A stretch of DNA of 64,000 bases, from contig WIAL01000049.1 of NCBI GenBank assembly GCA_015519975.1, forward strand, positions 1-64,000, read 5' to 3'. This document shows positions 1,990 to 23,873 of this stretch, in pieces. The stretch is from Hydrogenothermaceae bacterium. GTDB lineage: Bacteria > Aquificota > Aquificia > Aquificales > Hydrogenothermaceae. The translations under genes and the position numbers were made by a program. The notes under the pieces are model-generated. The model searched no databases, was not told the origin of the DNA, and saw only the letters and a program-made list of their open reading frames with translations. Position 1 is the first letter of the stretch. Every line of letters starts with the position of its first letter.

Positions 1990-2735
1990 AATATAACTAT
2001 AAATTAACAATAAGCTATTTAGGGACAAATTACCACGGCTGGCAAAGACAGCCAGAACACATAACTATACAGCAGGTAATAGAAGATAACTTAAAAGTCC
2101 TTATTAAACACCCTGTTAAGCTTTATGCTTCAGGAAGGACAGATGCAGGCGTCCATGCACTTGGTCAAGTTGCAAATTTTAAAACAAAAGAGTATTTTAA
2201 ACCTGAAAAAATAAAAAGATATTTAAATGCTGTTCTTCCAAGGGATATATCAATAAAAGAATGTAAGCAAGTACCTTTATCTTTTCACGCAAGATTTTCT
2301 GCAAAAGGCAAAACTTATATTTATAAGGTTTATACTCAGCCAGACCCGTTCATGTACCAGAGGGGGTGGTATATATCTCAAAAGCTGAATTTAGAAAACA
2401 TAGCCAAGGCTGTCCAGCTTGTAAAAAATACCCGAAATTTAATTTCAATGTCAAAAAAAGGAGATTATTTAAGGGAAGATGTCGAGATAAGAGAGTTTAA
2501 ATTTAAGTATGACGGCTTTTTACTTGAGTTTGAAATCTCGGCTTCACATTTTTTGAGATATATGGTTAGGAAAATTATTGCACACGTGATACATGTAGGA
2601 ACAGGTAGAATAACAATAGATACGTTTCAACAAATACTCGATTCAAAAGACCCTGCAAGGGCCTTATTCATAGCCCCTCCAGAAGGTCTTTATTTAAAAG
2701 AAGTCTATTATCTTCCTGAAGATGAGCAGTTATAA
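1986..2735 (+). CDS. truA: tRNA pseudouridine(38-40) synthase TruA
   Basis: TruA isomerises uridines 38-40 in the anticodon stem of several tRNAs. The 249-residue protein carries the catalytic motif SGRTDAGVHALGQV, with the nucleophile Asp53, and the usual N-terminal start of the family (ISYLGTNYHGWQRQ). It starts at a TTG whose TTGA overlaps the recN stop, a coupled arrangement. At the 3' end it meets the copper ATPase gene tail to tail: the two stop codons sit in a 6-nt overlap at 2730-2735, leaving no room for a separate terminator. Confidence 0.94.
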   Translation: MKYNYKLTISYLGTNYHGWQRQPEHITIQQVIEDNLKVLIKHPVKLYASGRTDAGVHALGQVANFKTKEYFKPEKIKRYLNAVLPRDISIKECKQVPLSFHARFSAKGKTYIYKVYTQPDPFMYQRGWYISQKLNLENIAKAVQLVKNTRNLISMSKKGDYLREDVEIREFKFKYDGFLLEFEISASHFLRYMVRKIIAHVIHVGTGRITIDTFQQILDSKDPARALFIAPPEGLYLKEVYYLPEDEQL

Positions 2736-4673
2736 TCTTTTTATCTGAAGCCTCAATGCATTTAGTACTACGCTAACTGAGCTAAAAGACATTGCAATTG
2801 ATGCAAAAACTGGTTTTAGAAGAACTCCGTTTATAGGATATAAAATTCCCGCTGCAACTGGTATTCCAATTGAGTTGTAAAAGTATGCCCAGAACAGGTT
2901 TTGTTTTATTATTTTATTTCCTTCTTTTGAAAGTTTTATAAATTTTAAGATGCTTTGTAAGTTATTACTTAAAATTACAGCATCTCCAGTTTCTTTTGCT
3001 ATATCTGCTCCACTGCTCATAGAAAGCCCAACATCTGCCTTTGCCATTGCAGGGGCATCATTTATACCATCTCCTACAAACATTACTTTTTTACCTTCTT
3101 TCTGCAAATTTTCTACAATTTTTAATTTATCTTCAGGAAAAACCTCAAAGTAAACATCATCAATGCCAAGTTTTTTAGCTACTTCTAATGCAGTATTCTT
3201 GCTGTCCCCTGTTATCATTAAAATTTCATAATCTTCTTTTCTTAATCTGCTAATTACATCTTTTGCTTCTTCCCTTATTTCATCTTCTATGGAAATTACC
3301 CCGACAACTTTATTGTTGACAGCTAAAAATATAACTACTTTTCCTTTTTTAGTTTCATTTTCATAAAATTCTATATATTTTTTGGGAATTTCAACATTAT
3401 TTTCCCTCATTAACCTTAAACTTCCGTTTAAAACAATTTCTCCGTTAATAACTGCCTTCAAACCTTTTCCTGTTATATTTTCAAAATTTTTAACTTCCAA
3501 AACATTCCCTTCAAATTTTTCTTTTATTGCCTTTGATATAGGATGGTTGCTTTTGGATGCAAGTGTATAAAGATAATCTTTTAAATTTTCATTTTCTAAA
3601 ATATATGAAGAGACCTTTAATTTTCCTTTTGTAAGGGTTCCTGTTTTATCAAAAACAACAGTTTTTACGCTATTTATAACCTCTACAACATCAGGATTTT
3701 TTATAAGTATTCCTTCTTTAGCTGATCTTCCAATTAAGGAAACAATTGCAATTGGAGTCGCAAGACCAAGTGCACATGGACAGGCTATTATTAAAACAGA
3801 AACTGCCGGAATTAGAGAAAGCTGAAAATTCTCAGTGAAAAAATACCAGATGTCAAAAGTAAAAATTGAAATTATAAGAATAGTTGGAACAAAATAATAA
3901 ACAACCTTATCTGCAAATTTTGCAATAGGTGGCTTTTTGCTCTGTGCTTCTAATATTGTTTTTATTATCTGATTTAAAACAGACGATTTTGCGTTTCTTA
4001 ACGCCTTTATTTTGCAGTATCCATCCTGAATTAAACTTCCACTTATAACATTTTGCCCTTTTTCTTTTAAAACAGGCATATATTCACCTGTAATTGCTGA
4101 CTGATTGACTTCACAACTTCCTTCTATAACAATACCGTCAACAGGAACTTTATCTCCTTTTTTTAAAACAACTATGTCACCTTCAACAATACTGTCTGCA
4201 TCAACTTCTATTTCCTTTCCATCCACAATTATTATGCTTTTCTGAGGTTTTAAATTTAAAAGGCTTTTCATAAATGACGTTGCTTTATTTCTTGCTTTTG
4301 TTTCTAAATATCTGCCAAGTAAGATAAAGGTAATTATTGCTGCTGCGCTTTCAAAATATGTATTTCTTGAAGTTTCTGGAAAAAATTGAGGAAAAAATAA
4401 AACAAACAAAGAGTAAAAATAAGCTGCAGACGTACCTACAACAACTAAAAGGTTCATATCTGCTATTTTATTCTTCAGTGCATTGATTGAGGATTTATAA
4501 AAATCAAAACCTATGTAAAACTGAACAATAGAGGCTAAAATAAAAATTAGATACTCTTTAAAGGAAAAAGAAACAAAAAACTTAATAAAGAATATTATAG
4601 AAGTTAAAGCTACTGCTAAAAAAACTTTTCTTTTTAGTTTAACTTCTTCTAACTGCTTTTTTTTTCTATTTCC
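2730..4673 (-). CDS. copA: Copper-translocating P1B-type ATPase CopA, catalytic part (read by frameshift from 4649-5011)
   Basis: Cu(+)-exporting ATPase of the inner membrane. Visible motifs are the TGE actuator loop (ITGEYMP), the transmembrane CPC (IACPCALGLATP), the phosphorylation site DKTGTLT, the SNHP nucleotide-binding motif, GDGINDAP, and the Cu-type membrane residues YN and MSFSS near the C-terminus. The first ATG of this frame (4457) falls after the first two expected transmembrane helices, yet the frame stays open back to 4673 and encodes exactly those helices, with no ATG, GTG or TTG. The HMA-domain frame upstream runs into it across an A9 run. A -1 shift there gives one protein of about 760 residues, normal for CopA. 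Alternatives are a sequencing error or a real frameshift mutation, which would make this a pseudogene. Confidence 0.85.
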   Translation of the reverse strand, partial: GNRKKKQLEEVKLKRKVFLAVALTSIIFFIKFFVSFSFKEYLIFILASIVQFYIGFDFYKSSINALKNKIADMNLLVVVGTSAAYFYSLFVLFFPQFFPETSRNTYFESAAAIITFILLGRYLETKARNKATSFMKSLLNLKPQKSIIIVDGKEIEVDADSIVEGDIVVLKKGDKVPVDGIVIEGSCEVNQSAITGEYMPVLKEKGQNVISGSLIQDGYCKIKALRNAKSSVLNQIIKTILEAQSKKPPIAKFADKVVYYFVPTILIISIFTFDIWYFFTENFQLSLIPAVSVLIIACPCALGLATPIAIVSLIGRSAKEGILIKNPDVVEVINSVKTVVFDKTGTLTKGKLKVSSYILENENLKDYLYTLASKSNHPISKAIKEKFEGNVLEVKNFENITGKGLKAVINGEIVLNGSLRLMRENNVEIPKKYIEFYENETKKGKVVIFLAVNNKVVGVISIEDEIREEAKDVISRLRKEDYEILMITGDSKNTALEVAKKLGIDDVYFEVFPEDKLKIVENLQKEGKKVMFVGDGINDAPAMAKADVGLSMSSGADIAKETGDAVILSNNLQSILKFIKLSKEGNKIIKQNLFWAYFYNSIGIPVAAGILYPINGVLLKPVFASIAMSFSSVSVVLNALRLQIKRL

Positions 4674-5011
4674 TCAAGAGCCTCTGATGCAGAGTATCCA
4701 AGCTCATTTATTTTGGAGATGATTTGCTCTTTAGTTATTTTTGCTGGATTGTATTTAAACAACCCTTTTGAGGTTGCAAAGTTCACTTTTGCTTCAATTA
4801 TTCCGTCCAATCCTTTTAAAGTTCCTTCTATTCCTGCTGCACAGCCTGCACAGTGCATTCCACCTATTTGAAGTTCTAATACTTCTTCTGAAGAAGATGA
4901 AGTATTTTCTGGGGTATTTATCTCATTATCTTTTTTCTTTTTACCAAAGAAAAATATTCCTACTCCAAAAATAACAGGAAGTGAGGAAAGTAAAACTATA
5001 TATTTTTCCAA
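4649..5011 (-). CDS. copA: Membrane-anchored HMA metal-binding domain (N-terminal part of CopA)
   Basis: Read without frameshifting, this gives a 120-residue protein. It has an N-terminal transmembrane helix (IVLLSSLPVIFGVGIFFF), a Lys-rich and then Ser/Glu-rich linker, and one heavy-metal-associated domain with the Cu(I)-binding motif GMHCAGC. It stops at TAG just after an A9 run. A -1 shift there would extend it into the ATPase frame. The best start is a TTG at 5009-5011: it has a CGGAGG nine bases upstream, whereas the TTG at 5018-5020 abuts that Shine-Dalgarno with no spacing. Alone, the product could be a tethered copper chaperone; extended, it is the regulatory N-terminus of CopA. E. 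coli copA makes a short chaperone by a comparable frameshift. Confidence 0.8.
   Translation of the reverse strand: MEKYIVLLSSLPVIFGVGIFFFGKKKKDNEINTPENTSSSSEEVLELQIGGMHCAGCAAGIEGTLKGLDGIIEAKVNFATSKGLFKYNPAKITKEQIISKINELGYSASEALEEIEKKSS
4656..4666 (-). promoter_or_regulatory. A9 slippery site, candidate -1 frameshift or transcriptional slippage in copA
   Basis: In the coding sense the bases read G-A9-G, decoded as GAA AAA AAA AGC AGT TAG in the HMA frame. A -1 shift on A-AAA-AAA gives GAA AAA AAA AAG CAG TTA and enters the ATPase frame. The Shine-Dalgarno-like and stem-loop stimulators were not analysed. Runs of nine A are also prone to RNA polymerase slippage. Confidence 0.55.
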
Positions 5012-5086
5012 GTTATACAACCTCCGTTTACAAAACTAACAGAGTTACAATATAAAACTTTAAGCTGTTAATTTAAAGCTGAAAAT

Positions 5087-21934: not shown

Positions 21935-23873
21935 TTATTTCTCTGAAACTTTCCTTTTTGTTTGATTTCTCACTTTTTTCTCTTACTTCAAGTTTATATT
22001 TTTTAAATCCAGTTTCAGCAATTATACTTTCAAATTCATTTTTCATGTTATGAATATTTTTATTATCAGTAATTATCGTTAAATTAAATCTATTATTTAT
22101 TAATGATGCTTTTAAGGTCAAATTGTCTAAATTTATTTTCATATTTACAAAGCGTTTTATATTTTGATCAAATTTTTGATTGCTTTCATTTCCTTCATTT
22201 TTTGTAACATAAGTTTTTTCTCCACCTGAATATGAATAATCCATTTTATAATCATTATTAGAAACAGTTTGCATATTATTTGTATTTTGATCATTGCTAT
22301 TTTTAACAATTGGCTCAGTGGTAGTTTTAGTAAATTTATTTTTCATTAAATCTTGTTGATTTAAGTTTACAACATCAAAATTTTCATTTTTATTTTCCTG
22401 TATTTTTTGAGTTACTGAATTTTCTAAATTATCTTGTTTTTTTTCTATAAAGTATTGTTTTTTTTCGTGTCCCTTCAATTCAGTTTTTAAATTTCTAAGA
22501 AAAACATTACTATTTTTATTCTTTGTATTTTTATTTATAAAATTAAAATCCCTAACATTTTTCTCTTCTTGCATATTTAAAGTAAATATTTTTTTAAGTG
22601 TGTTTTCTTTTTGTAATTCTTTATTTTTAAAATCTACTTCATTAGCATATTTTGCGATTGATTTATTTTTATTTATATTTTTTATGAAATAAAAAACTTC
22701 AACTCTTTTACTTGACTTTAAAATATCTAAAAATCCATATTTTGCTTTTGGTATAACTTGAGAAGATTTAATTTTTTCTTGTTTTTTATAGTGAAAAACA
22801 TTATTATCATAAATGTTATTTCCAGTTATATTTATTTCATTTTGAATTCTTTTAGTTTTTTTTTGCTCTTTTAAAGATTTTTTTGTAAAAATATTCTTCT
22901 CAATATTATCTTGGGACTTATCGGCAATTTTAATTTTAAAATTATCGGTAATTTTTAAAATGTTTTTTTCATTTTCTACATTCTTATGTATAAAAGACTT
23001 TTTAACGTTTTTATTATCTATAGGTAATTTATTTTCTATTTTTGACTTTTTATCTTGGCTTATAAAGCTTTGATCCTGCAAGTTTTTAGCTGTTATTACC
23101 TTACTTAAGTATATTTTCTTTATGTTTTTATTTAAGACATCTGTATTTTTACTGCTGTTTAAAATATATTTTGATTTTTCTTTTTTTACATCAAAAGTAA
23201 CTATTTTACTTCTTTTTTTATTATTTTCTTCTACATTTTTATTTACAATATTTTCCTTAACAGGTTTTAAACTTATAAATGTGATTTTTTTTGATGTTGA
23301 AGCTTTTTTAATATCAATTTTTCTTTCAGTATTTTCTAGTAACTTTTCATACACAAAAGGATTCTTTTTTTTAATATTAGATTCTTTTTTATTGGAAGGT
23401 TTGAATTCTTGTATTACATTATTTATTTTTTTATGAGATTTTTTATTTTTTTCTACTTTATTTATTAAATTAAACTTTTTTATTAACTCTTCTTTTTGAA
23501 AATTTTTTATGTTTACTATTTCATCCTTTGAGATTTGTATATTAACGCTGACTTTAGATAATTTTGTTATCTTTTCTTTTGATGAATTTTGTAATTTATA
23601 TAAAATCTGACTTTGTGAACTTAAATTTACTTTTTGTTTGTTAATATCTTTGTTTTTTAATAAATCTTTATGTAGTATTTTGTTTTCTTTTAAAATAAAG
23701 TTTATATTAGCAGTTTTATCTCCAAGTTTTTCTGACTTAAACGCTTCATTCAATAAATCACCAAAAGAAATGTGTTTTCCGCCGACAGGTAAATCTTTTT
23801 TACCTATTTGCTTACTTTTACCTTTAGGTATAAATAGCTTATTTAAAAGCTGAGTATTTTTTTCTAAATGCAT
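21921..23873 (-). CDS. fliK: FliK-like hook-length control protein (probable)
   Basis: A 650-residue protein, very rich in Lys, Asn, Ile and Glu, with no membrane segment. Most of the length (about 30-540) is low-complexity and probably unfolded, as expected for a molecular ruler. The last 90 residues are more globular (MKINLDNLTLKASLINNRFN, then MKNEFESIIAETGFKKYKLE) and resemble a FliK C-terminal domain, whose usual pattern is L-P..LG.v.v.l....v.v.f......l...l..L...L...G. Position after fliA and upstream of rod and hook genes, and the lack of any other fliK candidate, support this. Sequence motifs alone are not conclusive. Confidence 0.55.
   Translation of the reverse strand: MHLEKNTQLLNKLFIPKGKSKQIGKKDLPVGGKHISFGDLLNEAFKSEKLGDKTANINFILKENKILHKDLLKNKDINKQKVNLSSQSQILYKLQNSSKEKITKLSKVSVNIQISKDEIVNIKNFQKEELIKKFNLINKVEKNKKSHKKINNVIQEFKPSNKKESNIKKKNPFVYEKLLENTERKIDIKKASTSKKITFISLKPVKENIVNKNVEENNKKRSKIVTFDVKKEKSKYILNSSKNTDVLNKNIKKIYLSKVITAKNLQDQSFISQDKKSKIENKLPIDNKNVKKSFIHKNVENEKNILKITDNFKIKIADKSQDNIEKNIFTKKSLKEQKKTKRIQNEINITGNNIYDNNVFHYKKQEKIKSSQVIPKAKYGFLDILKSSKRVEVFYFIKNINKNKSIAKYANEVDFKNKELQKENTLKKIFTLNMQEEKNVRDFNFINKNTKNKNSNVFLRNLKTELKGHEKKQYFIEKKQDNLENSVTQKIQENKNENFDVVNLNQQDLMKNKFTKTTTEPIVKNSNDQNTNNMQTVSNNDYKMDYSYSGGEKTYVTKNEGNESNQKFDQNIKRFVNMKINLDNLTLKASLINNRFNLTIITDNKNIHNMKNEFESIIAETGFKKYKLEVREKSEKSNKKESFREINVKV
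22918..22944 (-). promoter_or_regulatory. Sigma28-like promoter motif inside the FliK-like gene
   Basis: On the minus strand TAAT, 15 bases, then GCCGATAA: one mismatch from TAAA-N15-GCCGATAA. It lies within coding sequence (encoding IADKSQ), so it could be chance. If used, it would feed transcription into the TPR gene and the rod genes. Confidence 0.3.

Follow-up and report, generated by a model that had tools for sequence, protein, structure and literature searches.

Two predicted copper proteins from one gene: a conserved A9 run in copA of the Hydrogenothermaceae and its probable reading by RNA polymerase slippage

How can a complete copper pump be made from a gene whose two parts lie in different reading frames, and whose second part has no start codon at the point where the first one ends? 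This question is raised by copA of a Hydrogenothermaceae bacterium, which lies on the minus strand of the window, that is, of the whole 64,000-nucleotide stretch of DNA that was analysed (contig WIAL01000049.1, positions 1 to 64,000). Our main reading, to which we give a probability of roughly two in three, is that two copper proteins are made from this one gene through a conserved slippage site, and that the slip takes place mainly at the RNA polymerase. The features of the locus are as follows:

5021-5025, minus strand: GGAGG, which probably serves the short ORF as ribosome-binding site, 9 nt ahead of the TTG at 5011-5009 (sequence)
4649-5011, minus strand: zero-frame ORF of a 120-aa membrane-anchored HMA protein with TTG start, ending in EIEKKSS and a stop (ORFs, Pfam PF00403, alignment)
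4946-5014, minus strand: anchor, a hydrophobic helix at the N-terminus with KKKK after it (AlphaFold2 helix 3-25, pLDDT about 60; conserved in the alignment)
4841-4861, minus strand: GMHCAGC, metal-binding motif in the HMA domain, which spans 4694-4873 (alignment, Foldseek)
4657-4665, minus strand: A9 run at which slippage would occur, read as T9 on the plus strand (invariant in 30/31 relatives)
4658-4664, minus strand: in-frame heptamer A_AAA_AAA, an alternative, ribosomal slippage site (sequence)
4649-4651, minus strand: zero-frame TAG stop, two codons past the A9 run (sequence)
2730-4658, minus strand: -1 frame of the CopA core, 642 aa, without a start of its own near the junction (ORFs, TIGR01511)

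At the junction, the minus strand from 4674 to 4645 reads ...GAA ATA GAA AAA AAA AGC AGT TAG... in the HMA frame, and GAAAAAAAAAGYNNNTAG is present once in the organism's own 1.92-Mb draft genome. The first-pass annotation had the HMA frame end at a TAG, which is correct, and placed that stop directly after the A9 run, which is not, as the TAG follows A9 and GCAGT. The ATPase frame lies at -1 to the HMA frame, stays open to 22 nt before the TAG, just upstream of A9, and stops at 2730-2732. Inspection of the frames also bore out the claim that it encodes membrane helices one and two but offers no start at the run: from the junction to the ATG at 4457 (residue 68), beyond these two helices, it contains no ATG, GTG or TTG. 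The TTG at 5011-5009 was chosen as the start of the HMA frame by alignment with the MEK, MKD and LDK N-termini of relatives, and from it the unshifted product has 120 residues and the shifted one 118+642 = 760, both sizes as first proposed.

The short protein consists of the hydrophobic helix, KKKK, a linker, one GMHCAGC HMA domain and the tail EIEKKSS, so that the anchored single-domain protein described in the first-pass annotation is recovered from the TTG start, the Pfam match (PF00403, E=6e-16) and the AlphaFold2 model. In this model the HMA domain adopts a ferredoxin-like fold with pLDDT>90, and the nearest solved structures found by Foldseek are the metal-binding domains of ATP7B, Menkes and CopA, as well as CopZ; the fold together with GMxCxxC marks an HMA metal-binding domain. 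The ATPase frame scores 578 bits against TIGR01511 (NCBIfam cut-off 397), also matches PF00122 and PF00702 (Pfam), and encodes MA, MB, six transmembrane segments, the actuator and the P/N domains. Its E1-E2 ATPase and HAD domains are accompanied by CPCALG (CPC), YNSIGIP (YN) and MSFSS (MxxSS), the set which defines a P1B-1 Cu(I)-ATPase (CopA).

The first explanation to be weighed for such a split is that it is not real, being a sequencing error, a pseudogene or a phase-variable tract in which the length of the DNA run is switched. Homopolymers mutate and are misread, and one fragmented metagenome-assembled genome (G003, DTZN01000196, L037/L076) does have A8 at the site, which is either a sequencing error or a real deletion, as far as can be read from the assembly. 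However, in the 31 Hydrogenothermaceae genomes with a readable junction, which span 8 genera and a family with named records in Persephonella, Sulfurihydrogenibium and Hydrogenothermus, this A8 is the sole exception: GAAAAAAAAAG is kept in the other 30 independent assemblies, including Sulfurihydrogenibium yellowstonense SS-5 and one single-contig genome, always out of frame by -1 and with a zero-frame stop a few codons on. A10 was not found at the copA site in any of the 31 junctions, there is no decay of the gene, and a phase-variable tract would be expected to yield in-frame members, such as the A10 copies in G035 and G002 of the second split gene described below. The length fixed in 30/31 thus refutes error, decay and phase variation, and we regard this explanation as scarcely credible. 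The retention of the out-of-frame run in relatives had been named beforehand as a check on recoding, and the run passes it. In every relative with both matches on one contig, apart from the A8 genome, the ATPase and anchored HMA matches adjoin, with the ATPase in -1.

The conservation also extends to the nucleotide level. When 28 fused genes from 28 genomes were aligned by codon (2409 nt), no other invariant stretch came near that at the site, which has 11 nt against 5 for the next longest; these are 11 real nucleotides, and the fused representation gives 12 because one A is read twice. Among 122 invariant amino-acid columns, nine, with Met and Trp set aside, are encoded by one and the same codon throughout, and the site accounts for four of these. 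G014 favours GAG and AAG elsewhere in copA (GAA 28%, AAA 40%), yet it retains GAA AAA AAA here. Judged from these alignments, conservation of the split site is far beyond chance. Past the site, the first 65 start-less codons of the -1 frame show dN/dS of about 0.07-0.31 in seven of eight genome pairs, the eighth giving 0.73 from very few changes, and therefore this stretch is translated. The HMA frame is likewise under purifying selection, and the third frame is closed in every genome after no more than 12 codons. In a tree, the split genes form one clade (support 98/97) against the in-frame HMA-ATPase fusions of the Aquificaceae.

These results bear directly on a further explanation, according to which the HMA protein and CopA are two separate genes, the latter translated from its own start by coupling or internal initiation. 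Purine-rich GAGGAAG-like stretches do follow the stop in several genomes, but no genome has an ATG, GTG or TTG at the junction, and the nearest start candidates are 29 to over 180 nt further on, at positions which are not conserved. Purifying selection on the start-less stretch also speaks against it, and the invariant A9 would be without reason. A separate ATPase start is thus largely refuted, and we consider two independent genes very improbable. Since A9 is conserved in -1, both frames are under selection and the split genes form a single clade, recoding is, on comparative sequence evidence, the only tenable reading for making the pump. A conserved out-of-frame site, a start-less second ORF and selection on both ORFs are the marks of a conserved recoding gene, and the proposal of a -1 event with two products is strongly supported.

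The first-pass annotation had left it open whether the ribosome or the polymerase slips, and the evidence now leans to the polymerase. In programmed -1 ribosomal frameshifting of the dnaX or insertion-sequence kind, the P- and A-site tRNA-Lys pair would slip one base back on A_AAA_AAA of a faithful A9 mRNA. All 30 genomes have the heptamer in the frame required, a stop codon lies a few codons downstream of it, and the only tRNA-Lys found is UUU, which also makes a Thermus-style argument from two tRNA-Lys inapplicable. Against this, folding without pseudoknots revealed no downstream structure common to 29 genomes (mean z -0.55), the lone low z-scores of G019 (-4.5) and G036 (-2.7) not being shared by other genomes, and no conserved upstream Shine-Dalgarno sequence was found among the genomes compared. 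These folds give no sign of the shared stimulator past the heptamer that characterizes an E. coli-type copA frameshift. Heptamers without a stimulator are weak in E. coli, reaching at most about 10x a background of 0.055% (PMC4066793), and the better heptamer, A_AAA_AAG, is never used in copA. In addition, ribosomal frameshifting needs only A7. As the main route, it therefore appears unlikely to us, though of the explanations opposed to our own it is the one to be taken seriously.

The length of the run speaks for polymerase slippage. In the complete genome of a relative (G033), coding runs of A>=9 number 18, compared with about 169 expected from within-gene synonymous shuffles (about 9-fold rarer), and coding runs of T>=9 number 2 against about 62 expected (about 30-fold rarer); coding A8 runs are about 2-fold rarer than the shuffles predict. 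This depletion, part of which may stem from replication slippage, marks nine as a length that the lineage avoids, and copA has kept its nine A against it, as is characteristic of an A9 slippage gene. A9 is known to slip with high efficiency, and it is used by Thermus dnaX (PMC5009743, PMC1088944).

A second gene points in the same direction. A scan of G033 for reading frames interrupted at homopolymers turned up only two -1 joins at A9 without a start codon, copA and a gene (G033:C1:1138438) which reads as a CCA-adding enzyme (tRNA nucleotidyltransferase), a name taken from its motifs without a database match. The two parts of this gene meet at A9, the second in -1, in 23 genomes of the family, including the organism's own (L317, G000 contig C9:15288-15923), and no start codon was found for the second part. 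Its in-frame copies have A10 (G035 and G002) or a broken run (G011). A_AAA_AAA is in frame here too, which would equally suit the ribosomal alternative; however, the run stands in another codon phase than in copA (TTA/CTA/ATA AAA AAA AAN), and the total is nine in both genes while the flanks differ. On the sequences compared, the common factor of the two sites is run length, not the flanking codons. Polymerase slippage is thus favoured because the run is fixed at nine when a heptamer needs seven, A>=9 is depleted, there is no conserved stimulator, and the CCA gene shares A9. The sequence evidence puts the polymerase over the ribosome at about two to one, and both may contribute.

Two further A9 runs were noted. 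At G033:C1:1224124 (minus strand), A9 lies where two same-strand ORFs of 279 and 91 codons overlap with an offset of +1 and with starts nearby, possibly as ordinary overlapping genes. In the window itself, a second A9 (22856-22864, minus-strand sense) falls within a long continuous low-complexity ORF rich in Lys and Asn, for which FliK-like is our guess, and slippage there would shorten the product.

Polymerase slippage in copA would proceed as follows. Faithful transcription and translation of A9 would lead to the stop two codons on, and hence to the 120-aa anchored HMA protein. When the 9-bp hybrid of the RNA polymerase is all A:T, the enzyme would slip, and a fraction of transcripts would gain one A; such A10 mRNA would be read through into the ATPase frame, giving the 760-aa CopA with the same HMA domain at its N-terminus. 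A8 or A11 transcripts would close within 12 codons, again giving short proteins, and some of the pump may come from slipping of the ribosome on A_AAA_AAA. The short protein would then pass Cu(I) to the pump or buffer it at the membrane. This role as Cu(I) donor or buffer would be the simplest and is a plausible one; alternatively, it may be a regulatory or stoichiometric partner of the pump. Unlike the CCA gene, copA was never found in frame in the Hydrogenothermaceae, and this suggests a need for the short product.

The other HMA proteins of the organism's own genome (contig C7) were considered as CopA partners and rejected, being MerP-like and mercuric-reductase-like. There, at G000 contig C7:60734-61622 (L002, L003), the MerP-like HMA protein adjoins a mercuric-reductase-like gene with an HMA of its own, and with other membrane proteins nearby the neighbourhood resembles a mercury-resistance cluster.

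Throughout this family of heat-loving bacteria, copA can yield its copper pump only by recoding; taken with the join in the CCA enzyme, this suggests a routine use of A9 slippage in the Hydrogenothermaceae. Chances seem about even that the family makes constant use of polymerase slippage at A9 for the expression of two or more unrelated genes, setting the ratio of anchored chaperone to pump in copA and acting also in the CCA enzyme, and that temperature or copper could influence the slip rate in copA. Genes of this kind will probably be labelled by annotation pipelines as pseudogenes or as two proteins. No earlier report of the Hydrogenothermaceae copA site was found in open-access literature text.

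Among known systems, the CopA proteins of the Aquificaceae (about 680-690 aa) likewise join a single HMA domain to this P1B ATPase core, with 38-43% identity, but their frame is continuous, without the N-terminal anchor and without the A9 junction. Shigella mxiE and Citrobacter tssM need slippage for their long product, as is proposed for Hydrogenothermaceae copA. In E. coli copA, the slip site is C_CCA_AAG with a pseudoknot. Thermus thermophilus dnaX also carries A9 in a thermophile gene, from which heterogeneous mRNAs give long and short proteins (PMC5009743, PMC1088944); there, however, standard decoding gives the long product and a slip the truncated one, whereas here the long product needs slippage. 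The closest parallel in outcome, E. coli copA, was already drawn in the first-pass annotation: in the accounts of Meydan et al. 2017 given in PMC5009743 and PMC9548414, -1 programmed frameshifting produces CopA(Z), and in both cases one Cu-ATPase gene gives a full pump and an HMA-only protein via a -1 event. The parallel holds for this outcome and fails for the mechanism. The 70-aa short product of E. coli needs the shift and its 834-aa pump arises by standard decoding, whereas here it is the pump that needs the shift; moreover, the Hydrogenothermaceae site is A9, without a conserved stimulator, and the short product is membrane-anchored. As the two genes differ in site and follow the opposite logic, the combination of full pump and HMA-only protein seems to have arisen on two occasions.
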